Positions 7,737-52,396 of a stretch of 64,000 bases of DNA are shown here, in pieces; within the stretch, counting starts at the first letter, position 1; each line of letters starts with the position of its first letter. The translations under genes and the position numbers were made by a program. The notes under the pieces were generated by a model, which was given only the letters and a program-made list of their open reading frames with translations, did no database searches and was not told the origin of the DNA. The DNA is taken from contig JAHDWB010000005.1 of NCBI GenBank assembly GCA_023382595.1, positions 62,001 through 126,000 of the forward strand. Reading direction: 5' to 3'. This DNA comes from Anaerolineales bacterium. Lineage in GTDB: Bacteria; Chloroflexota; Anaerolineae; Anaerolineales; Villigracilaceae.

Positions 7737-10700
7737 ATGAGCGCCGCAACCCGGAATTCGTGGGACTGGCTTGCGCTCGCCAGCCTTGGGGAGCAACTGC
7801 GGAATGTGGATTCTCTCAGCGCCCAGCGAGACCAGATCGCATCCATGACGAGCCGCCTGATCGACGGCAAGGTGGATGTCTGGCTGCAGGAAATGATGTT
7901 TCGCCTTCCGGATTGGAGCGACGGACGGATTTTTCCGAACCAGCCGTCGCTGGAGGGGATGAAGCGCGCCATCAAGTCGGGGAAACTCGTCACAAAAAAC
8001 GGCGGGACAAAAAAAAGCGCATCGCTCTCGACCTTTGCCTCGGTCCCGCTCGAGGATCAGGGGGTTACGCTGGGAGCGCTTCAGATCACCCGCCCAAAGG
8101 GACCTGCCTTCTCTGATGAAGAATTGAATTTGTTGCAGGGGCTGGCACAGATCGTGTCCGTCAGCCTCTTTGCGTCGCATCGCGCCGAGGTGGAAGAGTT
8201 CCGCCTGCGGCAGTTGAATCTGGTGCGCGAGGTCAGCGCGCAGATCGCAAACGTCGTTGACCTGGACGAACTCGCCAAGCGGGTCACCAAACTCATCCAA
8301 AAGACCTTCAATTTTTATTATGTCGCCATTTTCACGATGGAGTCGAACTCCAACGGGTTGCGCTTCCGCTCCAGTGCGGTCGCTCCGCGCAAGGGGAAAA
8401 AGAAGGCGAGCATTGCCTTGGAAGTGGAAACAGGCCAAGGCTTGATCGGCGAAGCGGCGCGGACGGGTGAAACGATCGTGTGTGACAATGTGCAATCCGA
8501 TCCGCGTTTTCGGTTCATTGACAGTTTGCCCGAAACCAAATCGGAAGTGGTCATTCCGTTGAAACTCGAAGACCGTGTGCTGGGCGTGCTGGATGTGCAA
8601 AGCGACCAGCCGAGCGCGTTCCATCCGAACGATCTGCTCATCCTGCATGCGCTTGCGGATAACGTCACTCGCGCGGTGGACGGTGCGCGTTTGTACAGCG
8701 ACCTGAGCCGCCGCGCGGATCAGTTCGCGCTGGTCTCGGAGGTCAGCAGGAGTGTGACCTCCACGCTCGATCTGTCGGAGTTCATGCGCGATGCCGCCAA
8801 TTTGATCCATGAAAAATTTGGTTATCCCTACGTCTCACTGTTCACGGTTCATCCCAACCGGCGTCTGATCGTGTATGAGGCGGGAAGCGGGAAACGCAGT
8901 AAAAATTTGGAGGGTTTTTCCATTCCGCTGGAAGCCGCGGAGGGGATCATGCCCTGGGTGGCGCGTCATGGACAGACTGCGTTGGTTAACGACGTTTCTC
9001 AAGATGACCGCTACCTCCCTTCACCTTTGCCGCCCAAGAATACGAAATCTGAATTATGCGTTCCCTTGATCTACAATGACCGTGTTGTCGGTTTGTTGGA
9101 TATTCAGTCTGATGTAGTGAACGCCTTTACCGAGGATGACCAACGGATGTTCGAAGCCGTGGCGGATACGATGGCGGCGGCGATCCGCAACGCGGACTTG
9201 TACCGCTCCGAGCAATGGCGCCGCCAGATCTCGGACAGCTTGCGCGAAGTGGCGGGTTTGATCTCCAGCAATGTTGGCGTGGACGAGGTGCTTGAGACCA
9301 TCCTTGCCGAATTGGACCGTAATCTTCCGGTGGATATTTCCGCCATCTGGCTTCTGGAGGATGGCGAATTGTGCCTCTCCGCGGTACATGGTATTGACGC
9401 CGCCCGCCTCGAGCAGACCTGCATCTCCAACCCTGATGCAGCGTACTCGATGGCGGAGACTTTGATGGCGGATTCTCCGGTTATCCGCAGCCCCGAAGAC
9501 CCGATCTGGCCCGGCGGGCTGACGGCGGGCTACAACCAGGATTACTCGTCCATTTCTGCGCCGCTGCGGGTGGGAGACCGCCAACTCGGTTTGTTGACGC
9601 TTGCCCATCACACGGCTGGGCGTTATGGGCATGAGGCGCAAGCCATCACTGCCACTTTTGCCAGTTATGCTGCGGTTGCCATTGAAAACGCCCGCCTGTA
9701 CGATGCTGCGCAGGAACAGGCGTACGCGTCCGCGGCGTTGTTGCAGGTGGCGCAGGCGGTCGTCAGTTTGAGTGACCTCGATGAAATCCTCACTTCCATC
9801 ATCCGTATCATGCCGATCCTGGTCGGGGTGAAGCGCGTGGCGCTCTATCGCTGGGACGAGGAGAACATGATCTTCGTTGCCTCGCAGGAATATGGGTTTT
9901 CAGAGGAAGAGGAGGAGACATTCACCGAAAGCGAGTTTCCGGCTGGGGCGTTTCCCTTCCTCGATTTTGTGCGGGATAACAATCAACTGGTCACACATTC
10001 GCTCAAGCCCAATGCAGGACCCGCCTCATGGTTGAAGATCAAGCCCGAGTTCCAACTTGAAGCGGACACGATGGATGCCGAGCGGCTGTTGATCGCCGTC
10101 CCGCTTACCATCAAGAACGACCTGTTCGGCGTCATGTTGATCGAGGAGGCGGATAATGCGCGCCGCTTCCGCTCGCGCCGCATCGAGATCATCAACGGCA
10201 TCGCACAGCAGGCGGCGCTTGCGATCCAGAACGATCTATTCCAGCAGGAGATGGTGGTGCGCGAACGCCTCGAAACGGAAGTTCAACTGGCTCGCCAGAT
10301 CCAGCAGACTTTCATCCCGGATGTTTTGCCCGTGCATCCCAAATGGCAGATCGCGGCGCGCTGGCGTACAGCCCGCCAGGTGGGTGGTGACTTTTACGAT
10401 GTGATCGAACTGCCAAACGACAGACTTGGGATTTTTATCGCTGACGTGGCGGATAAAGGCATGCCCGCCGCCTTGTTCATGGCGTTGACGCGCACGCTGG
10501 TACGCGCCGCCGTGATTGAGACCAGCTCTCCTGCCGAGGCGCTGTGCCGCGTCAACGACTTGCTTTTGCCGGATACACAGCAGGGCATGTTCGTGACCGC
10601 CGTGTACGGCGAACTGGATCTGATGGAAGGGCGTTTCACGTATGTGAACGCGGGACATAACCCGCCGTTTTTAGTGAGAGAAAGTCAGGTTGAGAAGTTG

Positions 10701-43516: not shown

Positions 43517-44443
43517 TTACAACGCCCACTCCCGTTTGCGCCCGCTCATTTCCCTGGCGATCTCCGCCGCCAGCCGCGCGTTGTTCAACAGCAGGGCAAG
43601 GTTGGCGTTCAATGACTTGCCCTGCGTTAACTCGCTGATGCGCCCAAGCAGGAAGGGAGTCAACGCCTGCCCGTGGATGCCGCCCGCGATCGCTTCAGCG
43701 GAGGCTTTGGCGATGATCGGTTCCATCTCGGACTTTGAAATTGCCTGCGTTTCTGGAATGGGATTCGTCACGAGGATGCCGCTCTTCATGCCGAGGTTCC
43801 AGTGCGCCCTGGCGAAGTCCGCGATCTCTTTGGGCGAATCAAGCCGCGCGCTCACGCCCAGTCCGCTTTCGCGGGAGTAAAAGGCGGGGAATTCGTCGGT
43901 CCCGTAGCCGACCACCGGCACGCCCAGCGTTTCGAGATATTCGAGCGTGGCGGGCAGGTCAAGGATCGCTTTCGCGCCCGCGCACACCACCACGGTGGGG
44001 ATCTCTGCCAGCGAACGCAGGTCGGTGGAGATGTCGAACGCGGATTCCTTGTGCACGCCGCCGATCCCGCCGGTGGCGAAGACCTTGATGCCCGCCATGT
44101 TCGCCGCGAACATCGTGCCTGCCACGGTCGTGCCGCCGTCCGCTTGTTTGACGATGGCGGTCGCGAAATCGCGGTGGCTGACCTTCAGCGTGGAGTCTGC
44201 TTCAGAAAGCCGCACCAGTTCCGCGTCGGAGAGTCCGATGCGGATGGTTCCATCCAGCAGGGCGATGGTGGCGGGGATCGCGCCATGCTCGCGCACTTGT
44301 GTTTCCATGTCCCGCGCCAGTGCCAGGTTTTGCGGGTGCGGAAGTCCGTGCGTGATGACGGTCGATTCGAGTGCGACGATCGGCGCGCCCATATCGAGCG
44401 CGCGGGTGATCTCGGGCGTGAGTTGGAAGTTGGGATGTTTCAT
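43517..44443 (-). CDS. psuG: Pseudouridine-5'-phosphate glycosidase
   Basis: The 308-residue product is a full-length PsuG: VALESTVITHGLPHPQN, the HRDFATAIV and GGTTVAGTM stretches, FATGGIGGVHK, and VVGYGTDEFPAFYSRESG. It splits pseudouridine 5'-phosphate into uracil and ribose 5-phosphate. The usual kinase partner PsuK is not adjacent. The ATG overlaps the stop of the SPFH gene upstream by 4 bp, so it is translationally coupled to that operon, an unexpected link. Confidence 0.92.
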   Translation of the reverse strand: MKHPNFQLTPEITRALDMGAPIVALESTVITHGLPHPQNLALARDMETQVREHGAIPATIALLDGTIRIGLSDAELVRLSEADSTLKVSHRDFATAIVKQADGGTTVAGTMFAANMAGIKVFATGGIGGVHKESAFDISTDLRSLAEIPTVVVCAGAKAILDLPATLEYLETLGVPVVGYGTDEFPAFYSRESGLGVSARLDSPKEIADFARAHWNLGMKSGILVTNPIPETQAISKSEMEPIIAKASAEAIAGGIHGQALTPFLLGRISELTQGKSLNANLALLLNNARLAAEIAREMSGRKREWAL

Positions 44444-46041
44444 TGGCTGTTGTAGGGGACGTGCACGGCGATGTCGCGCAGCGCCTTGTCGATCCTTGCG
44501 ATCTCTGCCTGTATGTCGAGTTCGGAGTCGGGTTTTTCCTTTTGGATCAGGTCGCGGGCGGCGATCAATTCCCTGCGGAACGCGCTCAGCAGGTCGCAGG
44601 CGGTCTCGAGCGGCGGTCGTTTGTTGGCGCTTTCCGGGTTGACGAGTTTGTCAAGATACGCCCCGATGTTGAAGTTGGGGTTGTTGTCGAAGAGCGTTTT
44701 GAGTTCCCTGGCTTTCTGTAGTTCCTTTTCGGTGAACTTGAAGGGCGTTGAGTTCTTCTCGAAATTGGCGATCACGACCTGGTTGATCAGCCCGAGCAGT
44801 TCATCGTCCTGGTATTTTTTGGTCATGCGTTCGATGTTCTTTTGCCGCTTGGTGTTTTCGCGCAGCAGGCTCCAACCCGCCTTCAATTTGTCATTGACGA
44901 TCTCGGATGCCACCTGCCAGGTCCCGATGTCGATCCATTCGATGGTGATGCCGAGTTCGGACGCTTTTTTCTGGAAATCCGCATTCTCGATGAACTTTTT
45001 GGTGAGGTTCGGGCGCGACTCGACGTTCCGCGTGCGGGATTCGCCGACCTTGTGCGCCGCGGTCTGCGCGCCGGTCATTTCCACGCGCATCTGCTCGACC
45101 GTCTTCTCGTTGTCGTTGATCAGTTCCAATTCCTTCTGCCCGATGCTGGCGAGCAGGTCGCTCAGGTCGTGCGAGCAGATCAGCTTTTCGAGTTCGGTCG
45201 CCACCAGCGGGATCACGGTCGTATCCCAGGGGAAGGTCACGCCGGGGATGTTGGGCGGCGGGGTGACGGTGATCTGTTGGTAGACCAGGTCGTACAACGC
45301 CTTTTTGTCGAAGGGATAGGGGTCGTTCTCCTGTTTTGCGCCGCGCCCCCTGTACGGACGCTTGATGCTGAACATCAGTTTGATGTCCAGCGCCTCGATC
45401 GGGATGCCGTCCCTGGTGCGCGCTTTGACGGAGAGACCGCTGACGAACTGGTCGCGCAGGTTGATGACGGCATATTCGCGTTTGCCGACCTCGTCATGTT
45501 TGCCGATCTCGCGGATGCGCTCGAACCTGCCGAGGTTCCACGGCTCGCCGCGCGCATAAATGACCTCGGGTTCGCCGTCCAGTTTTTCGAGCAATGCCGC
45601 GCTGCCGAGGTTGACCTGGATCTGCCCCGGTCCGCCGACAAGGATGATGGGCGAGCGTTCGTCATCTGCGGAGATCCTGCCTTCGTTGATGGTGATGTAC
45701 TCGTGCCCATACCCGAAAGCGACCTCCTCGATGAAATCCGCGGCAAGGGCTTCGTTCTCCAGTTCGAAGATGTCGTCGAGATAATGGGCGGCGTGTTGTC
45801 TCGCCACGTCGTAAACGACCCACAGCAGGGGCAGGTACTTGAGGAAGCTCAACACGACCACCACCAGCCGGTGCATCGACTCGGTCAGCGTGAAAATGTG
45901 CAGGATGGTGGTGAATCCGCCCAGCGTGAACCAGACCACGGCGGCTAGCAGGAAGCGCCAGCGGTTCCGGACGTTTACGCTCTCCTCGCTTAATCCGAAG
46001 ACGTGCGCTGCAATGGTGTCGCGCTGTCTGGCTGCCCTCAT
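44440..46041 (-). CDS. SPFH/band-7-like membrane protein (fourth of operon)
   Basis: The 533-residue product has two N-terminal membrane helices (about 29-53 and 59-79), an SPFH-like beta domain (about 110-235) with ILVGGPGQIQV and the motif TRDGIPIE (209-216), and a long helical C-terminal part with coiled-coil stretches (about 310-530). SPFH proteins form ring- or cage-like membrane assemblies and often bind proteases. It overlaps the genes on both sides by 4 bp (ATGA). The start at 46041 is set by this overlap. Confidence 0.7.
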   Translation of the reverse strand: MRAARQRDTIAAHVFGLSEESVNVRNRWRFLLAAVVWFTLGGFTTILHIFTLTESMHRLVVVVLSFLKYLPLLWVVYDVARQHAAHYLDDIFELENEALAADFIEEVAFGYGHEYITINEGRISADDERSPIILVGGPGQIQVNLGSAALLEKLDGEPEVIYARGEPWNLGRFERIREIGKHDEVGKREYAVINLRDQFVSGLSVKARTRDGIPIEALDIKLMFSIKRPYRGRGAKQENDPYPFDKKALYDLVYQQITVTPPPNIPGVTFPWDTTVIPLVATELEKLICSHDLSDLLASIGQKELELINDNEKTVEQMRVEMTGAQTAAHKVGESRTRNVESRPNLTKKFIENADFQKKASELGITIEWIDIGTWQVASEIVNDKLKAGWSLLRENTKRQKNIERMTKKYQDDELLGLINQVVIANFEKNSTPFKFTEKELQKARELKTLFDNNPNFNIGAYLDKLVNPESANKRPPLETACDLLSAFRRELIAARDLIQKEKPDSELDIQAEIARIDKALRDIAVHVPYNSQ

Positions 46042-47462
46042 GGGTTGTCCTGTCCCTTTTGGTTGTCGAAGATGAACTTGTTGACCAGCAGCCATTTCCA
46101 GATCTCGTCCAGTTTTCTGAGTTCGGTATCCACTTCGCGGTTGGCGGTGTTCTCGCTCAGGATGGACTCGCGCAGCGGCTGGATCAGGTCCTGCAGCAGG
46201 GCGTAGGGATCGGGGTCGGAAGCGATCGGGTTGTCGAATTTTTTCGTGACGATGCGGGTGAAGCGTTTGACCGCCTCGTTGCGGGCGTTGGTCTTGAGCA
46301 GCGCTTCCTGTTCGTTCAGCAGGGTTTCGTCCTTTTTGGCGATCTTCATCCATTCCGCGTTCCATTGGCTGCTGAGCAGGTCTTCATTGGCGGGGTCGAG
46401 GTGGATGTCATGAATGCGCACGTCGAGGATCTCCAGTCCGCGCGCCTGCAGTTGTTTGTATTCGGCGCTGTAAATGCGCTCCATCGTCCTTGCGCCGGTG
46501 TCGTCCAAGCCTTCCAGATACTCTTCTTTGACCCGTTTGTTGATCATCTCCTCGATGACCTGCAAGCCGTTGAGTCCGTTATGGTTGGCGAACAGGTCTT
46601 CGAGTTTGAACTTGCGGATGTATTCGCGCCAGATGTTCACCACCAGGTGTTCGGGAAACTTGTCCCATTCCATGCGGGACCTTCCGCCTTCGGAGGAACC
46701 CAACTGGACGACTTCACGCGTCACTGCATTGCGGACGGCTTGTTCGTCGTAGCCGTAATGCGAGGTGACGCCGCTCTCGGTCGGCGTTTGTTTGTCGGGG
46801 CGTTTGAGGCGGAATTTGACGCTGATGGTGGGGGAGACCTCGACGCCGTCGCGCGTCAACCCGGATGTCTGCTGGAGGGCAGCCGGCAGCATCTTTTGTT
46901 TTTTGGAGTTGGTCTGGGTGGTCAGGTTTTCGCCCGCCCGCGGACCGATGAACTGCCATTGGATGCGCAGATCCACGCTGTCCGCCACGAACTCGCTGAA
47001 GCCCTTGCCGTTGACATCGTACATTTTTGTGAACTTGATGCCGGGTCCGACCGTATCCTTGAATTCGATGTCGGTGCGGAGGACTGCCGCGCTGGCGGTA
47101 TCCAGCAGGACAACGCCCGGTCCGACCTTCCCGCGTTCCCCCTCATGCTCGATCACGCGTCCGTTCTTGATGAAGATGGCGGGTCCGCGATTGCCGGATG
47201 AAAAGTTCCGCACGCGGGTGTAGATCTCCTGCCGGTGCTTCGGGTTTTGGATCGGGAGAACGAATTGCGAAAAGAAGTAAATTAAACGGTCGAGCAGGAA
47301 GAGTGCGATCGCAATGTCGATGCCGAGTATGAACAGGCTGACAAGCGGGTTGAATGGAATATCCAGCCACCATACAACACCGTGCCACAGGGCGGACATG
47401 AAAATAATGATGCCCGGCGCTGTTTTCAGAAGTGCGCCAATTCCGCTAAAGAGGTTCCTCAT
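46038..47462 (-). CDS. SPFH/band-7-like membrane protein (third of operon)
   Basis: The 474-residue product has two membrane helices (about 14-34 and 40-66), a beta region with GPAIFIKNGRVIEHEGERG and VGPGIKF, the motif TRDGVEVS (203-210) followed by TISVKFRLK, and a helical tail with SAEYKQLQARGLEILDVRI, a strand-helix pattern typical of the end of SPFH domains. It follows the S24 protein gene after 39 nt and has no strong Shine-Dalgarno. Confidence 0.7.
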   Translation of the reverse strand: MRNLFSGIGALLKTAPGIIIFMSALWHGVVWWLDIPFNPLVSLFILGIDIAIALFLLDRLIYFFSQFVLPIQNPKHRQEIYTRVRNFSSGNRGPAIFIKNGRVIEHEGERGKVGPGVVLLDTASAAVLRTDIEFKDTVGPGIKFTKMYDVNGKGFSEFVADSVDLRIQWQFIGPRAGENLTTQTNSKKQKMLPAALQQTSGLTRDGVEVSPTISVKFRLKRPDKQTPTESGVTSHYGYDEQAVRNAVTREVVQLGSSEGGRSRMEWDKFPEHLVVNIWREYIRKFKLEDLFANHNGLNGLQVIEEMINKRVKEEYLEGLDDTGARTMERIYSAEYKQLQARGLEILDVRIHDIHLDPANEDLLSSQWNAEWMKIAKKDETLLNEQEALLKTNARNEAVKRFTRIVTKKFDNPIASDPDPYALLQDLIQPLRESILSENTANREVDTELRKLDEIWKWLLVNKFIFDNQKGQDNP

Positions 47463-47501
47463 TATGAGGTGATTTTAAAGCAGAATCAGTTAATCCGCCA
47501 A

Positions 47502-48761
47502 TCAGGATTGGGAAATAGGCTTTGCCACCGCGTAGACGATGCCGTGGATATGGACGTTCTTGTCCATGATGATCGCTTCATATTCCGGACCTGTTTCATG
47601 AGTCTCTGAAACAAGCACTCCCTTTGCTCCCCGGAAACGTTTGACAACCGCGCGCCATTGGTTCTTTTCTTTGTGAAAGATAAATGCAACGACCACATCG
47701 TTTTCATCTGGGGAAGGGTGTTTTTTTACGAGGACGTAATCGCCGTCTTCGATGGAGGCATGCCCCCGCATGTTGTTCATGCTGTGCCCTTCGACTTTCA
47801 TCCAACCCCATTCATCGCCCTTTGCCGGGTTGATCTGGGCGCCGGGGCGAAGCGAGTGTAACTCGAACTTTTTCCCATCCATGTGGACATGTTTTACTTC
47901 CACAAAATGATTCTTCAGCCCGTCCAGTTCCGGTGCGCCCGACTTTCCCGCGCGCACCTTTTGCTTGTAAATGGGTTGGGCTGGGATGATCATATACCCT
48001 TCGGCATCGGTGCGGGTTTCGTTCTCGAGCGGTTCATCGTCACTGTTGGGGCGCTTCTCAGCAGGGAGTTGGATGTTCACCTTGTTGACCGGGTAATTCT
48101 CGTTCGAGATATTGACCGGCATGTTCACGTTGTTGACCGGGCGGTTCTCGTTCGAGATGCGGATGGGAATGTTTAAGGCGACCGACGTTCCCTCTTCATC
48201 GTCCGCGGGCGGGTCCTGAATTGGGAAGTTGTTTTCCCGATGGGCGGGATCAGGCTGAACGGTCCGGAAAAGAGGCTCGTTGCTCCAATGCTCCAGCACT
48301 TCGTTGATCTCCAGCCGTATTTCGTTCCGCATGCGCAGTTCATGGTCCAGTTCAGGAGAATTGATATGCGTCCTGATCTCGAGCAGATGCAGCGCCTGTT
48401 GTAGTTCGCGCCGCGCCCGCGCAAAGTCGAGCAGTCCGGCAAGGCACAGACCAAGCAGCCAGTTCGCCAATGCCTTGTTGACGGCTGAATCCCATATGCC
48501 GACCAGCGCCGTTCGGATTTTTTGAGCCGCAGCCATGTATTCGTCCCGCTCGTAATACAGGCACGCCAGAAAGAAGTTGTACATGCCGACTAGGTCGTGA
48601 TTCCCAAGGTCCGACGTGGCAATCACGTCGTCAAGCTGTTCGATCATGCGCTGCAGACCGTCGGGCTCGGTGGAATCCAGAAGCGCGACGGCGTTGCGGA
48701 TGCGGTGGGTTTCACCCGCGCAGATCGCGAACATCAGGATTTGGTTGATCTCAGGCTTCAT
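47502..48761 (-). CDS. Helical-repeat protein with C-terminal S24 (LexA-like) peptidase domain
   Basis: The 419-residue product has an all-helical, TPR-like N-terminus (1-160), a linker with a 16-residue tandem repeat (about 197-232), and a C-terminal S24 domain. The catalytic Ser327 lies in KVEGHSMNNM and the general-base Lys374 in RAVVKRF, with DGDYVLVKK between. Such domains self-cleave in LexA and UmuD, but there is no DNA-binding domain and no obvious Ala-Gly or Cys-Gly cleavage site was identified. The ATG overlaps the upstream stop by 4 bp. It is the only soluble protein among the SPFH genes. Confidence 0.8.
   Translation of the reverse strand: MKPEINQILMFAICAGETHRIRNAVALLDSTEPDGLQRMIEQLDDVIATSDLGNHDLVGMYNFFLACLYYERDEYMAAAQKIRTALVGIWDSAVNKALANWLLGLCLAGLLDFARARRELQQALHLLEIRTHINSPELDHELRMRNEIRLEINEVLEHWSNEPLFRTVQPDPAHRENNFPIQDPPADDEEGTSVALNIPIRISNENRPVNNVNMPVNISNENYPVNKVNIQLPAEKRPNSDDEPLENETRTDAEGYMIIPAQPIYKQKVRAGKSGAPELDGLKNHFVEVKHVHMDGKKFELHSLRPGAQINPAKGDEWGWMKVEGHSMNNMRGHASIEDGDYVLVKKHPSPDENDVVVAFIFHKEKNQWRAVVKRFRGAKGVLVSETHETGPEYEAIIMDKNVHIHGIVYAVAKPISQS
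48073..48168 (-). repeat. 48-bp tandem duplication inside the S24 protein gene
   Basis: Two copies with period 48 bp encode a repeated ISNENxPVNxVNxPV motif in the linker before the S24 domain. Confidence 0.75.
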
Positions 48762-50092
48762 TCTTCGTTACCGGGCAGGTGCAGGGGGAATTTGATCGTC
48801 TCCTGCAATTTCTCCAGAATTTCAAGCGCTTCCTTCCCGAGGTTCGCGCGCACGGCGGGGTCGCTAATGCCCTGATCCAAAAAGCCCGAAATGAACAACA
48901 TCATGTGCTCTGGGAATCTCGACGCATCGTCGCGGTTCAGCCGGTGCGCGATGGTCAGGATCAGGTTACGCTGCATTTCGGCGCGGGCTCGTTCCCGCAT
49001 CCGGATTTCGTGCGCCTTCACCTCCCCCTGCGTCACCGTGACCGTACTTTCGTATGCCGCTTCGAATGTCTTTTTGCGGAGTTCATCGACCTTGCGCGGG
49101 ACCTTTACGCTCAATATCTGAAGGTTCGAAAGCGAAACGCCGTATTCCCGGGATTTTTGGTTTATCTCATTGACCAGGTCGGTGATATTTCCATTTGAAA
49201 GCAGAGTCGCATCATGGCTGTCGCGCAGGAAAAGCTGGTCGAGGTAATGTCGTGAAATAAAACCGCCCAGGATCCCCTGCGTTTGTCCAGTCGCCGATTT
49301 GATCCAATCGTTCGCATCCCTGCCGTTCTTGTAGGTGTGCTCGACCGCTTTCTTGATGGATTCCGGATCGAATGGGATCAGGATATTCTCGTCAAGTTCG
49401 TTGCGCTCCCTGCCGAGAAAATACTCGCCTCGCGCCTGGACCTCGATCTTGATCCCGTCCATTGTCCATGCTTCAACGCTGAATTCTTCCGTCTTGGTAC
49501 CAACGTCGATGACAGCCGCGATCCGTTCTTCCCAATCTAGAAACGCGCTGCCTTGTCCCACCACCCGCGAGAACCGCCCGAAGCGCTCGAGATACAACGC
49601 ATGCCCTGGCTTGATCTCCAGTTTCGCAGGTCCGCCGATGATCGTTGACCAGTGGTCCGGCGGGTTGAGCGCGCTCTTTTCCACGGTCACTTTCGGGAAA
49701 CGGATCCATTTATTGAAGGGAGGCGGCAGCCGCGGAATTCCGGCAACCCGCAGGCTTACAACACGCGAGAGATCTTCGTCACCCTGCAGGTCGTGAAAGT
49801 GCCGGATGAATTCCACAGCAGCGCGTTGAATGCAGTATCTGCCGATGCCGAACAAGAGGAGCATCCCGCAGGAATAACCCACGATCATTAACGGGAGACG
49901 CAATGGATGCCACATCATGCCTTTGTCGTATTGATCGAACGACCAGAAGACAATATACAGAACCGGGATCATCAATGCGATCACAGTCACAATGGATAAC
50001 CGGCTTTCCTTGCTGGCAGAATCATTGAACGCCTGCTGTTCGGAATAATGTTCCTGCCATTGCCTGGGGTCGGATGATGGTTTGAAAGGCAT
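48758..50092 (-). CDS. SPFH/band-7-like membrane protein (second of operon)
   Basis: The 444-residue product has two membrane helices (about 32-52 and 65-87), an SPFH-like domain (about 150-330) with IIGGPAKLEIKPGHALYLERF and TMDGIKIE (210-217), then SNLQILSVKVPRKVDEL and a charged coiled coil (QGEVKAHEIRMRERARAEMQ). ATG 50092 is preferred over GTG 50101 because GGGGAG lies 8 nt before it, although the GTG would give a 4-bp overlap with the upstream gene. This is the clearest SPFH member. Confidence 0.75.
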   Translation of the reverse strand: MPFKPSSDPRQWQEHYSEQQAFNDSASKESRLSIVTVIALMIPVLYIVFWSFDQYDKGMMWHPLRLPLMIVGYSCGMLLLFGIGRYCIQRAAVEFIRHFHDLQGDEDLSRVVSLRVAGIPRLPPPFNKWIRFPKVTVEKSALNPPDHWSTIIGGPAKLEIKPGHALYLERFGRFSRVVGQGSAFLDWEERIAAVIDVGTKTEEFSVEAWTMDGIKIEVQARGEYFLGRERNELDENILIPFDPESIKKAVEHTYKNGRDANDWIKSATGQTQGILGGFISRHYLDQLFLRDSHDATLLSNGNITDLVNEINQKSREYGVSLSNLQILSVKVPRKVDELRKKTFEAAYESTVTVTQGEVKAHEIRMRERARAEMQRNLILTIAHRLNRDDASRFPEHMMLFISGFLDQGISDPAVRANLGKEALEILEKLQETIKFPLHLPGNEE

Positions 50093-50097
50093 GATTG

Positions 50098-51657
50098 TCA
50101 CTCCCCGTGCGGTGCGATCAGATGAGATTTTTTGGAGGTTATTTTGCCGTCCGGCTGGCTGGTCTTTTCGTTCTCGCCGCTCTGTTCATCCACCAGTTTC
50201 TCCAACACGCTGATGAAGCGCATGGCGATCACGTAGCGCGGAAGGTTTTCATGCAATGCGCGCGCCTGTCGGAGCCCGTCCGCGATGGCGGTGAGAAGGA
50301 CGGAGTGGGCATAGGCACGCGCCTCCTGCTGGACGCGCTCCGCCTCCACTCTGCCGTCCGCGATCATCATGGCGTGTTTTCGCTCCCATTCCACGGTCCA
50401 TGCGCTGATCTGCTGCTGGGCGATCTCGTCAATTTTTGGGCTGTCCTTATCTTTAAATCCGGCTCGTGCGTTGAGCAGCCGGATCCCCATTCTTCGCAGG
50501 CGGAGATCGAGCTGGGCTCGCATCTCGGTTGCGATCTCGTCCGCTGCGCTGCCGCCTGCAAGGACGCGCGCCCGCCACAACTCCTCGATGGAGCGTTCCG
50601 AAAGCGCCTCCCGCGCGGCTTCCTCCGCCATGGCAAGCACTCGATCGTCCCAGTACATGACCGCCTCTTCGCCGTTTTCAAGAATCCGCTTGCTTCTGAA
50701 GCTCAGCGCAGCTTTTACGCGCGCCTTTGAAAATGGGAATATCCCGTCTAAATTTGTGTCAGGTTCCCTGCCTTGAATGATGTTGGCGCGTAAATGGGTA
50801 TGATATTGTTCCCGTGTCCAGGTCTCGTTGTCGATGCAGAAGGAAACCGACACATCCGCCTCGAAGGGAATGCCCTCCCGCGATATGGCTTTTATCGTTG
50901 ATTTTTTGTTTTGCACTCTCAGGTCTATCAATTCGAAAGGCTGTTCGCTTTTGTTAAAGAAGAACAGCCCGGGTCCGCGGACATCGAACGTTGCGCCGCT
51001 CAAAATCCCCGCTGCCTGATGGGGATATGTCCAGCCGATGCCCTGGAGAAACTTGAACGTTTGTGTGCTGTCGATGCGCTTGTCTGGTTCTTTTGTCGAA
51101 CTGATGGGGGCGGGAGATTTCCAAAAGGATTGTTGATGTCCCCACAGATAGGCAAGGAAGGCGGCGAATCTGTAGAATTTCTCCTGCGGGTTTGCAGGGT
51201 CGGATGCGGGAAGGATGGCAAGCGCAATATAATAGACTGCGAACAGGAGCGCTGTGAGAATGGGAAGCGAAATTGCAATTATTCCGATCCACTTGTTGAA
51301 CAGCCATCCAGCAAGAAGGATGGCATAAACGGTCAGGAATGAAAAGATGCCGCGTCCTTCGGCGTTTTTCTTTCTTGCGAAGTAGATGCTTCCAATTGCA
51401 AGGATGAAGCCCCACCGAATCCATTGGTCGAGATTAAGGATGCGGCTAAAAAAAACATCAAGCCAATTCGGCAGCCACAAAAACAAAAAGGAGACGACCA
51501 ATACCAGCAGCGCATAGATCGTTACAGGAACGATGTTCCGGGGAAAACCGTGTTCTTTGGATGATTTGAAATAATAGACTCCAATCAAGTAGAACGATGC
51601 CAGAATGAAAAGAACTGTCATAATCCCGCCAATAATCATGTTTCGGTCGTCTGTCAT
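50098..51657 (-). CDS. SPFH/band-7-like membrane protein (first of operon)
   Basis: The 519-residue product has five membrane helices (about 8-29, 43-64, 80-94, 103-122, 124-149), an SPFH-like domain (about 215-420) with GILSGATFDVRGPGLFFF and SREGIPFE (259-266), and a coiled coil (DGRVEAERVQQEARAYAHS). ATG 51657 is chosen because the promoter lies at 51705-51734; an ATG at 51747 is upstream of it. GGGAG lies 11 nt before the start. Confidence 0.72.
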   Translation of the reverse strand: MTDDRNMIIGGIMTVLFILASFYLIGVYYFKSSKEHGFPRNIVPVTIYALLVLVVSFLFLWLPNWLDVFFSRILNLDQWIRWGFILAIGSIYFARKKNAEGRGIFSFLTVYAILLAGWLFNKWIGIIAISLPILTALLFAVYYIALAILPASDPANPQEKFYRFAAFLAYLWGHQQSFWKSPAPISSTKEPDKRIDSTQTFKFLQGIGWTYPHQAAGILSGATFDVRGPGLFFFNKSEQPFELIDLRVQNKKSTIKAISREGIPFEADVSVSFCIDNETWTREQYHTHLRANIIQGREPDTNLDGIFPFSKARVKAALSFRSKRILENGEEAVMYWDDRVLAMAEEAAREALSERSIEELWRARVLAGGSAADEIATEMRAQLDLRLRRMGIRLLNARAGFKDKDSPKIDEIAQQQISAWTVEWERKHAMMIADGRVEAERVQQEARAYAHSVLLTAIADGLRQARALHENLPRYVIAMRFISVLEKLVDEQSGENEKTSQPDGKITSKKSHLIAPHGE

Positions 51658-51704
51658 TTTGAATATGTCTCCCGTGTGTTGCCGCCTGATAGATAGACAA
51701 AAAT

Positions 51705-51734
51705 AGTATATACTTTTCCAAAACTCCTTGTCAA
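51705..51734 (-). promoter_or_regulatory. Promoter of the SPFH operon, overlapping divergent PHP gene region
   Basis: On the minus strand a perfect TTGACA (51734-51729), an 18-nt spacer and TATACT (51710-51705). The -10 box lies in the palindrome AGTATATACT (51705-51714), so a second TATACT faces the divergent PHP gene. Predicted leader of about 40 nt. Confidence 0.7.
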
Positions 51735-51745
51735 GAACAAATGTC

Positions 51746-52396
51746 ATGATTACGCTGGAATTTCACTGCCATACTTCCGCCTCAAAAGATTCCCTCACCC
51801 GCCCTGAAGATCTGGTCAACACGGCGCGCAGAAAGGGCTTGGACCGCCTCGTCATTACCGATCACAACTCGATCCAAGGCGCGTTGGCGGCTCAGAGGCT
51901 CGACCCGGAGCTGGTGATTGTTGGCGAAGAGATCATGACGACGAAGGGGGAGATTCTCGCGGCGTTTGTGCAGGAGGAAATTCCGCCGGGTTTGACGCCG
52001 GAGGAAACGATTGGACGCTTGAAGGAGCAGGGTGCGTTTATCAGCGTTTCGCATCCGTATGATACGCATCGCAAGGGCGGCTGGATGGAAGATGATTTAC
52101 TGGAGATCATCCCCCATGTGGATGCGATTGAGATTTTCAACTCACGCTGTATGGATCCGCGCTTCAATCATCGGGCGGAGTTGTTTGCACAGCGGTACAA
52201 TCTCGCAGGGACGGTTGGCTCTGATGCGCATGCGGCGTTCGAGGTGGGCACATCCGTCATGGTGTTGGACCCGTTTGAAGGTCCGCAGGGGATGCGAGAG
52301 GTGATTCGTCAGGCGAAGTTCAAGACGAAGTTATCCCCCTGGTGGGTGCATCTCGTCTCGCGGTATGCATCCATAAAGAAGAAGATCAATCGTTGA
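51746..52396 (+). CDS. PHP-domain metal-dependent phosphoesterase
   Basis: The 216-residue product has the PHP motifs: FHCHTSASKDS, ITDHNSI, the Glu region GEEI, SHPYD and SDAHA (late), all metal ligands. The family includes 3',5'-nucleoside bisphosphate phosphatases and other small phosphoesterases; the substrate is unknown. It is divergent from the SPFH operon and may share its control region. The last 11 bp overlap the convergent transporter gene. Confidence 0.82.
   Translation: MITLEFHCHTSASKDSLTRPEDLVNTARRKGLDRLVITDHNSIQGALAAQRLDPELVIVGEEIMTTKGEILAAFVQEEIPPGLTPEETIGRLKEQGAFISVSHPYDTHRKGGWMEDDLLEIIPHVDAIEIFNSRCMDPRFNHRAELFAQRYNLAGTVGSDAHAAFEVGTSVMVLDPFEGPQGMREVIRQAKFKTKLSPWWVHLVSRYASIKKKINR

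Follow-up and report, generated by a model that had tools for sequence, protein, structure and literature searches.

A minus-strand gene cluster of an Anaerolineales bacterium combines two SPFH modules, one of them with a TPR-S24 protein

Gene content of the cluster

The window analysed here is a stretch of 64,000 nucleotides from an Anaerolineales bacterium (Chloroflexota, Villigracilaceae; GenBank assembly GCA_023382595.1, contig JAHDWB010000005.1, positions 62,001 to 126,000 of the forward strand), and the subject of this study is a cluster of six minus-strand genes in it, spanning 51657-43517 in the order A-B-C-D-E-psuG-like. Genes A, B, D and E encode SPFH-type proteins, and gene C encodes a soluble protein with TPR helices and an S24 domain. 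The cluster is made of two modules, A-B-C and D-E-psuG. An earlier sequence-only reading of this DNA had described five genes at 44440-51657, with C between B and D; the SPFH genes and the TPR-S24 gene are indeed found there, all on the minus strand, and the division into two modules had been overlooked. The 4-bp overlaps that it had noted at several joints are present at A/B, B/C and D/E, and a fourth joins E to psuG; C and D are separated by 39 bp. The gene order from A to psuG recurs in other genomes, one of which belongs to this species and is a single contig (locus L228). The six genes are as follows:

50098-51657, minus strand: gene A, first-position SPFH protein of 519 residues with four hydrophobic segments in a hydropathy scan (Pfam Band_7, 27.6 bits; profile match to D, 99.7%)
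48758-50101, minus strand: gene B, second-position SPFH protein of 447 residues with two hydrophobic segments and a GTG start (Band_7, 35.1 bits; profile match to E, 99.6%)
47502-48761, minus strand: gene C, soluble TPR-linker-S24 protein of 419 residues (Peptidase_S24, 37.6 bits; profile matches to LexA, UmuD and TPR; structure model with a predicted local distance difference test score, pLDDT, of 68.9; fold search)
46038-47462, minus strand: gene D, SPFH protein in the first position of the core pair, 474 residues (Band_7, 28.3 bits; profile match to HflC in PDB, E 0.002)
44440-46041, minus strand: gene E, SPFH protein in the second position of the core pair, 533 residues (SPFH by predicted fold; no Pfam family above cut-off)
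43517-44443, minus strand: psuG-like gene of the Indigoidine_A family, 308 residues, partner of the D-E pair (PF04227, 410.8 bits)

The SPFH proteins and their pairing

The claim of four SPFH-like proteins is borne out, for A, B and D by Pfam, where Band_7 scored above its cut-off, and for E, which fell below it, by the predicted fold. Structure models were built for C and E, and the SPFH core, for which structure prediction had been proposed as a check, is present in the E model (mean pLDDT 83.0). This model gave 33 Foldseek matches at E ≤ 0.001, to erlin, HflK/C, prohibitin, stomatin, QmcA, flotillin and major vault protein, the shoulder of which is SPFH-like; one of the stomatin matches sits in an aquaporin 1 entry. 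In VIA-align the top Z-scores were 11-12, with the stomatin SPFH domain 4fvg at Z 11.5 (root-mean-square deviation 2.1 over 109 residues), and full-chain matches had large deviations. E is counted as an SPFH protein because its predicted fold matches SPFH structures, despite the silence of Pfam, and the possibility that it has no SPFH core is ruled out on the same grounds.

N-terminal hydrophobic segments, as expected of SPFH membrane anchors, were seen in A, B, D and E with a simple hydropathy scan, in agreement with the membrane helices previously proposed. The motifs SREGIPFE, TMDGIKIE, TRDGVEVS and TRDGIPIE, put forward as a shared feature, are present, and profile comparison aligns them (A with D, B with E). 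Besides the A-D and B-E matches listed above, D and E are related to each other (98%), and relatives carry a third pair, here named D2-E2, with profile matches to D and E at 100%. Judged from these profiles, the SPFH subunits are paralogous pairs by position (A, D and D2 in the first, B, E and E2 in the second), and each pair may be seen, by analogy, as a first-position and a second-position protein in the manner of HflK and HflC. In profile searches of PDB, HflC was the best sequence match of D, B gave weak matches to stomatin and HflC, A solely a prohibitin at E 0.74, and E nothing meaningful. The equivalog models of hflC and hflK stayed below their cut-offs (27.4 bits for D against 134.4, and 12.8 bits for A against 159.4), and a Pfam scan of the six operon products found no member of the NfeD family. 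As a separate observation, L239 (5134-9681, 1515 residues) and L108 (11352-14090, 912 residues) each encode a fusion of an SPFH-type protein with LVIVD beta-propeller repeats.

Domains and conserved residues of protein C

Three parts of C can be placed on the DNA:

48258-48761, minus strand: TPR-like helical domain, residues 1-168 (modelled as helices over residues 3-166; residues 15-169 align in VIA-align with Z up to 15.3)
47946-47951, minus strand: putative self-cleavage site, Ala271-Gly272 (residue conservation)
47517-47906, minus strand: S24 (LexA-like) domain, residues ~286-415 (Ser327 codon 47781-47783, Lys374 codon 47640-47642)

C had been described as a soluble protein with a helical N-terminus and an S24 domain containing Ser327 and Lys374, and this description holds, the helices being TPR helices and both residues of the dyad being invariant in 22 aligned relatives. 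The Peptidase_S24 score stands against a Pfam cut-off of 23.3, the six Foldseek matches of the C model at E ≤ 0.001 all fall on LexA and lambda repressor, UmuD coming just under that threshold, and the profile search of PDB returned LexA, UmuD and TPR structures. Residues 171-252 have pLDDT under 50, as a flexible linker would. The NCBIfam models for lexA and UmuD did not reach their cut-offs (25.6 bits against 110.95, and 27.2 against 110), and Pfam, profile and fold searches found no DNA-binding family in C, which has TPR instead. A second S24 match in the same genome scored 96.8 bits, and this other protein could serve as LexA.

In 37 S24-bearing proteins, 27 from a first set and 10 from other families, with close relatives or near copies among them (L276 and L277, L098 and L100), Ser327, Lys374 and Ala271 are kept without exception (27/27 and 10/10), the Ala being read from aligned context strings, and the Ala is followed by Gly in 31 (22/27 and 9/10). 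Peptidases of the S24 family carry an Ala-Gly or Cys-Gly site ahead of the domain, and the conserved Ala-Gly before S24 inside C points to self-cleavage. The first set holds 37 proteins at the C position, and in ten of these no S24 was recognisable: it is absent or replaced by another tail in seven (L108, L188, L222, L225, L226, L227 and L239), and the other three (L272-L274) diverge at the C-terminus, where the Ser-Lys dyad is missing. Since S24 is missing or replaced in these ten, the TPR adaptor is the constant part. A short C-terminal motif, RLIxxE..RxP...AIxRW.RDN-like by eye, replaces S24 in the C relatives in L188 (2981-4195) and L227 (6515-7258), and comes after S24 in the one in L099 (7542-8825).

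Gene order in related loci

Gene order was compared in 119 unique loci, which remained of 141 after 22 duplicates, L228 among them, had been dropped. The loci were partly fetched by similarity to E, so that shares of D-E are not population frequencies, and L171, where a TPR protein is matched by the C model, was excluded from the counts of C. The 95 D-E units, four of which show E alone at a contig cut, are followed on the same strand by psuG in 75 cases and by psuK in 19, together 94, the lone exception being L196. The full order A-B-C-D-E-psuG was found in seven of the 119 loci (one at an edge). A-B-C occurs with psuG or psuK-psuG and without D-E in three loci, and with neither psu nor D-E in four (one at an edge); B precedes C in all 14 B genes of this set. 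In a sister form, seen in nine loci (one with a split KAP frame), a gene for a KAP nucleoside triphosphatase (NTPase) precedes D2-E2-C, and in four of the nine (L074, L082, L085 and L088) this group lies back to back with D-E-psuG. D2-E2-C was found without KAP in five loci, as D2-E2-C-D-E-psuK-psuG in L108 and as E2-C at a contig end in L196. Altogether C stands directly after an SPFH gene in 30 of its 32 genes, the others being in L226 (contig edge) and L103.

Within the window's genus, D was detected in 52 of 56 genomes. For C the count is at least 16, of which 15 came from a single-sequence search (with G005 excluded) and one, G028, the genome of L081, was missed by it. A-B-C is an accessory unit there, and D-E-psuG is near-universal. 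At a wider scale, an E2-type profile at E ≤ 1e-10 found matches in 30 of 400 genomes of the phylum, all in the window's class, Anaerolineae, and a scan with the E alignment through 84,980 species, one genome apiece, gave 87 loci, of which the 80 kept are all labelled as belonging to Chloroflexota groups, one of them a Herpetosiphon sp. The tie of D-E to psuG/psuK (43517-46041 in the window; 94/95 units) is an unexplained link between a scaffold and nucleotide catabolism, and the variable space before D-E holds genes weakly matched by the C model via TPR in L077, L154, L161, L170, L171 and L178 (Pfam check for L077).

A check of the neighbours of the S24 protein had also been proposed, and it placed SPFH genes beside C both near the window and in other families. 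A C-only single-sequence search of 151 genomes gave 31 rows for 29 genes (two proteins with two rows each); two genes at contig edges (G039:C258 and G072:C35) were set aside, and an SPFH gene lies just upstream of C in 24 of the 27 readable ones. Among the 24 are G072:C30, a C-position protein without S24, and G080, where the SPFH gene is truncated by the contig end. The three matches without SPFH are L103, a real C with no SPFH gene within 15.6 kb, a broken fragment in G106 (L285) and an unrelated TPR protein in G005 (L287). A phylum-wide search at E 1e-6 gave matches in 298 of 400 genomes, many of them short and limited to the S24 part, as expected of LexA-type proteins. With a C profile at E ≤ 1e-20 across the class, 17 of 396 genomes matched in 19 rows, ten of them from other families. 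L306, where C sits at a contig edge with an SPFH gene downstream on the other strand, was set aside, and SPFH adjoins C in eight of the nine readable loci; the ninth, L308, is an ATPase-TPR-S24 fusion with ~450 bp visible upstream. In each of the seven scanned loci (L301-L305, L307 and L309) Band_7 exceeded its cut-off, and L300 was recognised by the A and B profiles. Two SPFH genes were recognised beside C in L300, L303 and L309 and a single one in L301, L304, L305 and L307; L302 is cut. With these 24/27 and 8/9 counts, the possibility that the S24 protein is mostly found away from SPFH genes is ruled out.

In five of the other-family loci (L300, L301, L305, L307 and L309) psuG or psuK follows C, and in L272-L274 two SPFH genes are followed by a third gene (with TPR in L272) and then by psuK. 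Within the class, the older layout may be the one that joins SPFH to C and psu, with D-E-psuG as a form that has no C, an order of events that we infer. A tblastn search with B and C against 72,556 plasmid records gave no match.

Co-variation of the two units

Protein-distance correlations with permutation p values were computed for 12 A-type and 12 D2-type loci, in that order below, with cross-unit pairs covering 6-10 loci. Within the C-bearing unit, the two SPFH proteins correlate with each other at r 0.89 and 0.95, the first of them with C at 0.48 and 0.91, and the second with C at 0.54 and 0.88 (p 0.0002). Within the other unit, r is 0.97 and 0.98 for D-E, and 0.88 and 0.92 for D-psuG. Across the units, r is 0.16 (p 0.25) and 0.36 (p 0.11) for the first SPFH protein with D, 0.18 (p 0.21) and 0.44 (p 0.04) for the second with E, 0.21 (p 0.08) and 0.47 (p 0.008) for the first with psuG, 0.26 and 0.58 (p 0.12 each) for C with D, and 0.27 (p 0.04) and 0.52 (p 0.06) for C with psuG; all comparisons of the SPFH proteins or C with D, E, psuG or the neighbouring PHP gene fall at r 0.16-0.58 (p 0.008-0.25). 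The cross-unit signal is weak rather than nil, and part of its weakness may come from the high divergence of A-B-C. A-B-C and D-E-psuG are two side-by-side units with separate histories.

Upstream region

Upstream of A lie two further features:

51705-51734, minus strand: promoter-like site TTGACA-18-TATACT, ~48 nt before A (consensus scan, 11/12 positions; consensus match only)
51746-52396, plus strand: PHP-domain phosphoesterase gene, divergent from the operon (PF13263, 44.6 bits; PF02811, 35.6 bits)

A promoter before the operon had been proposed, and the promoter-like site agrees with this by consensus match, the 12 other promoter-like sites in the surrounding 10 kb each matching 9/12 positions. 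A search of 51640-51780 for inverted repeats found just one overlapping repeat, at the -10 region. The PHP-phosphoesterase gene is a frequent neighbour of SPFH modules in relatives, in either orientation, and as a matter of speculation it might fit a theme of nucleic-acid turnover.

Proposed mechanism and alternatives

The reading that we prefer, and which we hold to be quite possible if short of probable, is that A and B form a scaffold for C, which cleaves itself on a signal, and that D-E-psuG is a separate core unit. A and B would together make a single mixed ring or cage in the membrane, with cytosolic SPFH domains, and C would be a cytosolic partner that docks by its TPR adaptor and carries the LexA-fold serine-lysine domain on a flexible linker. 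A signal arriving via the scaffold, or via the NTPase in relatives, would lead C to cut itself at Ala271-Gly272, and the cut, by parting TPR from S24, would switch the complex. As a sister scaffold that has no peptidase, D-E-psuG would be linked to nucleotide (perhaps pseudouridine) catabolism of the PsuK/PsuG type. Gene order, SPFH and S24 membership, the conservation of the dyad and of the site, and the separate histories of the units are what this picture is drawn from; ring assembly, topology, self-cleavage, a contact between C and A-B, and the signal and output are what we infer from them.

Several observations weigh against this scheme. Around Ala271 the model has pLDDT under 50 (residues 261-284), the distance of 56 residues from Ala271 to Ser327 is longer than in LexA, where the cleavage-site Ala and the Ser are 35 residues apart, and Ser, His or Asp follows the Ala in six of the 37 S24-bearing proteins. 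The ten C-position proteins without S24 imply that peptidase activity is not required in every such system. C is absent after seven of 23 E2 genes, and in L275, a locus fetched later, an A-B pair is adjoined by an ATPase gene and psuK with no C. The four other-family loci with one recognised SPFH gene imply that a mixed SPFH pair is not universal, the correlation of C with its SPFH neighbours in A-type loci is just 0.48-0.54, and D has three hydrophobic segments in the hydropathy scan, which would allow more than one topology for it.

The sequence-only reading had proposed a four-way hetero-oligomer, in which A, B, D and E make one SPFH assembly with C as its peptidase. The single run of genes with its 4-bp overlaps and 39-bp C-D gap would suit such an assembly, as would the seven loci that repeat the full order, but the proposal found no support in the comparison of loci and we consider it very improbable: the SPFH proteins fall into two paralogous pairs, A-B-C is missing beside most D-E units, D-E is missing beside A-B-C in seven loci (one truncated by a contig edge), the correlation of distances across the units is weak, and D is more widespread in the genus than C (52/56 genomes against at least 16). 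It is also unlikely, if less so, that C works in trans, in the manner of FtsH with HflK/C, and uses its S24 domain to cut the SPFH proteins, an NTPase or a membrane substrate. SPFH-protease pairing is known from stomatin-NfeD and HflKC-FtsH (PMC2636767), and the dyad is intact in every S24-bearing protein examined. Against this stand the invariant Ala, mostly as Ala-Gly, before S24 inside C, which is a mark of self-cleavage, and the nearest folds to C, those of LexA and lambda repressor. Both of these are self-cleaving regulators. Cleavage in trans finds no support here, and the site would rather point to self-cleavage, with trigger and function both conjectural. That the S24 domain no longer cuts, and serves as a structural or peptide-binding part while the TPR adaptor does the work, would account for the ten proteins without a recognisable S24 (seven with an absent or other tail, three divergent without the dyad), but it is improbable given that Ser, Lys and Ala are kept in 37/37 proteins wherever S24 is recognised.

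As to purpose, A-B-C may be a stress- or invader-sensing switch. An anti-invader (conflict) system, with SPFH proteins as membrane anchor, NTPases and TIR proteins as partners and C as proteolytic switch, is compatible with the self-cleaving A-B-C scaffold that we prefer and would fix its purpose; we regard it as a real, if tentative, possibility. KAP, NACHT, TIR and restriction neighbours hint in this direction. The KAP NTPase precedes SPFH-SPFH-C in nine of the 119 loci, and the three scanned match the PADLOC models PDC-S20, PifA and QatA. A TIR-domain gene (9782-10588) lies between the SPFH gene and C in L301, where psuG comes after C; type I methylase and specificity genes stand directly before SPFH-SPFH-C in L303; a NACHT-HEAT gene follows SPFH-SPFH-S24 in L276; TIR is fused to a C-type TPR region in L310 (2191-3192), with the remainder of the match broken by stops; and the ATPase-TPR-S24 fusion of L308 (8475-11054, 859 residues) adjoins an nSTAND2 gene. 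The patchy distribution of A-B-C within the genus would fit as well. On the other side, the six operon products of the window had no good match among PADLOC models (best E 0.027), metabolic or transport genes make up most of those scanned beside L096, the repeated association with psuK/psuG suggests metabolism, and B and C were unmatched in the plasmid collection. A broader idea, which as a whole we place on the unlikely side, is that Anaerolineae have a form of signalling in which an SPFH cage holds a LexA-fold TPR protein that cleaves itself without DNA or RecA, triggered by the membrane or by an NTPase (KAP, NACHT) and acting with TIR-type effectors or PsuK/PsuG.

Should a LexA-fold self-cleaving protein work together with SPFH proteins, the two would form a third type of SPFH-protease partnership, next to those named with FtsH and with NfeD-type proteases. 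A self-cleaving C in an SPFH cage would be a membrane-borne counterpart of the SOS switch, turning membrane state into an irreversible switch and extending S24 self-cleavage beyond DNA-bound regulators. The link of D-E to psuG/psuK is a separate puzzle.

Comparison with known systems

Judged by titles and abstract beginnings, none of the open-licence papers listed by the searches is about a combination of SPFH with a LexA-like S24 protein. One close arrangement is HflK-HflC with FtsH, which shares with the window two different SPFH proteins, adjacent genes and a protease partner. It differs in that no FtsH is found among the operon products, the partner here being a soluble TPR-S24 protein, and in that the SPFH domains of the window are guessed to be cytosolic, whereas those of HflK/C are periplasmic.

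Prokaryotic SPFH proteins have been sorted into 12 subfamilies, with NfeD and FtsH named as protease partners (Hinderhofer et al., 2009; PMC2636767); neither 'peptidase' nor 'LexA' appears in the main text of that paper. In the stomatin/flotillin-NfeD operons (SPFH1, SPFH2 and SPFH5) described there, as in the window, an SPFH gene adjoins a peptidase-related gene, and the trees of the partners are alike; the window differs in having no NfeD and a peptidase fold of the LexA type. The subfamilies SPFH11a and SPFH11b, reported there as always adjacent in one operon in 4/8 Chloroflexi genomes, resemble A-B and D-E as two adjacent SPFH genes of Chloroflexi and differ in that S24, TPR, KAP and psu genes go unmentioned in the passages compared; matched by description only, they may be related to the pairs studied here.

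The relatives of the cluster resemble the NTP-dependent conflict systems, in which NTPases, peptidases and effector domains assort in operons (PMC7159879); in the body of that paper S24 and LexA are absent and SPFH stands solely in a reference title. C itself is comparable to LexA, UmuD, lambda repressor and IrvR, the last described in PMC7101444 as LexA-like yet an exception to the RecA rule, and shares with them the fold, the Ser-Lys dyad and an Ala-Gly-type site. It differs from all four in that TPR helices replace the DNA-binding domain and in its coupling to membrane SPFH genes.

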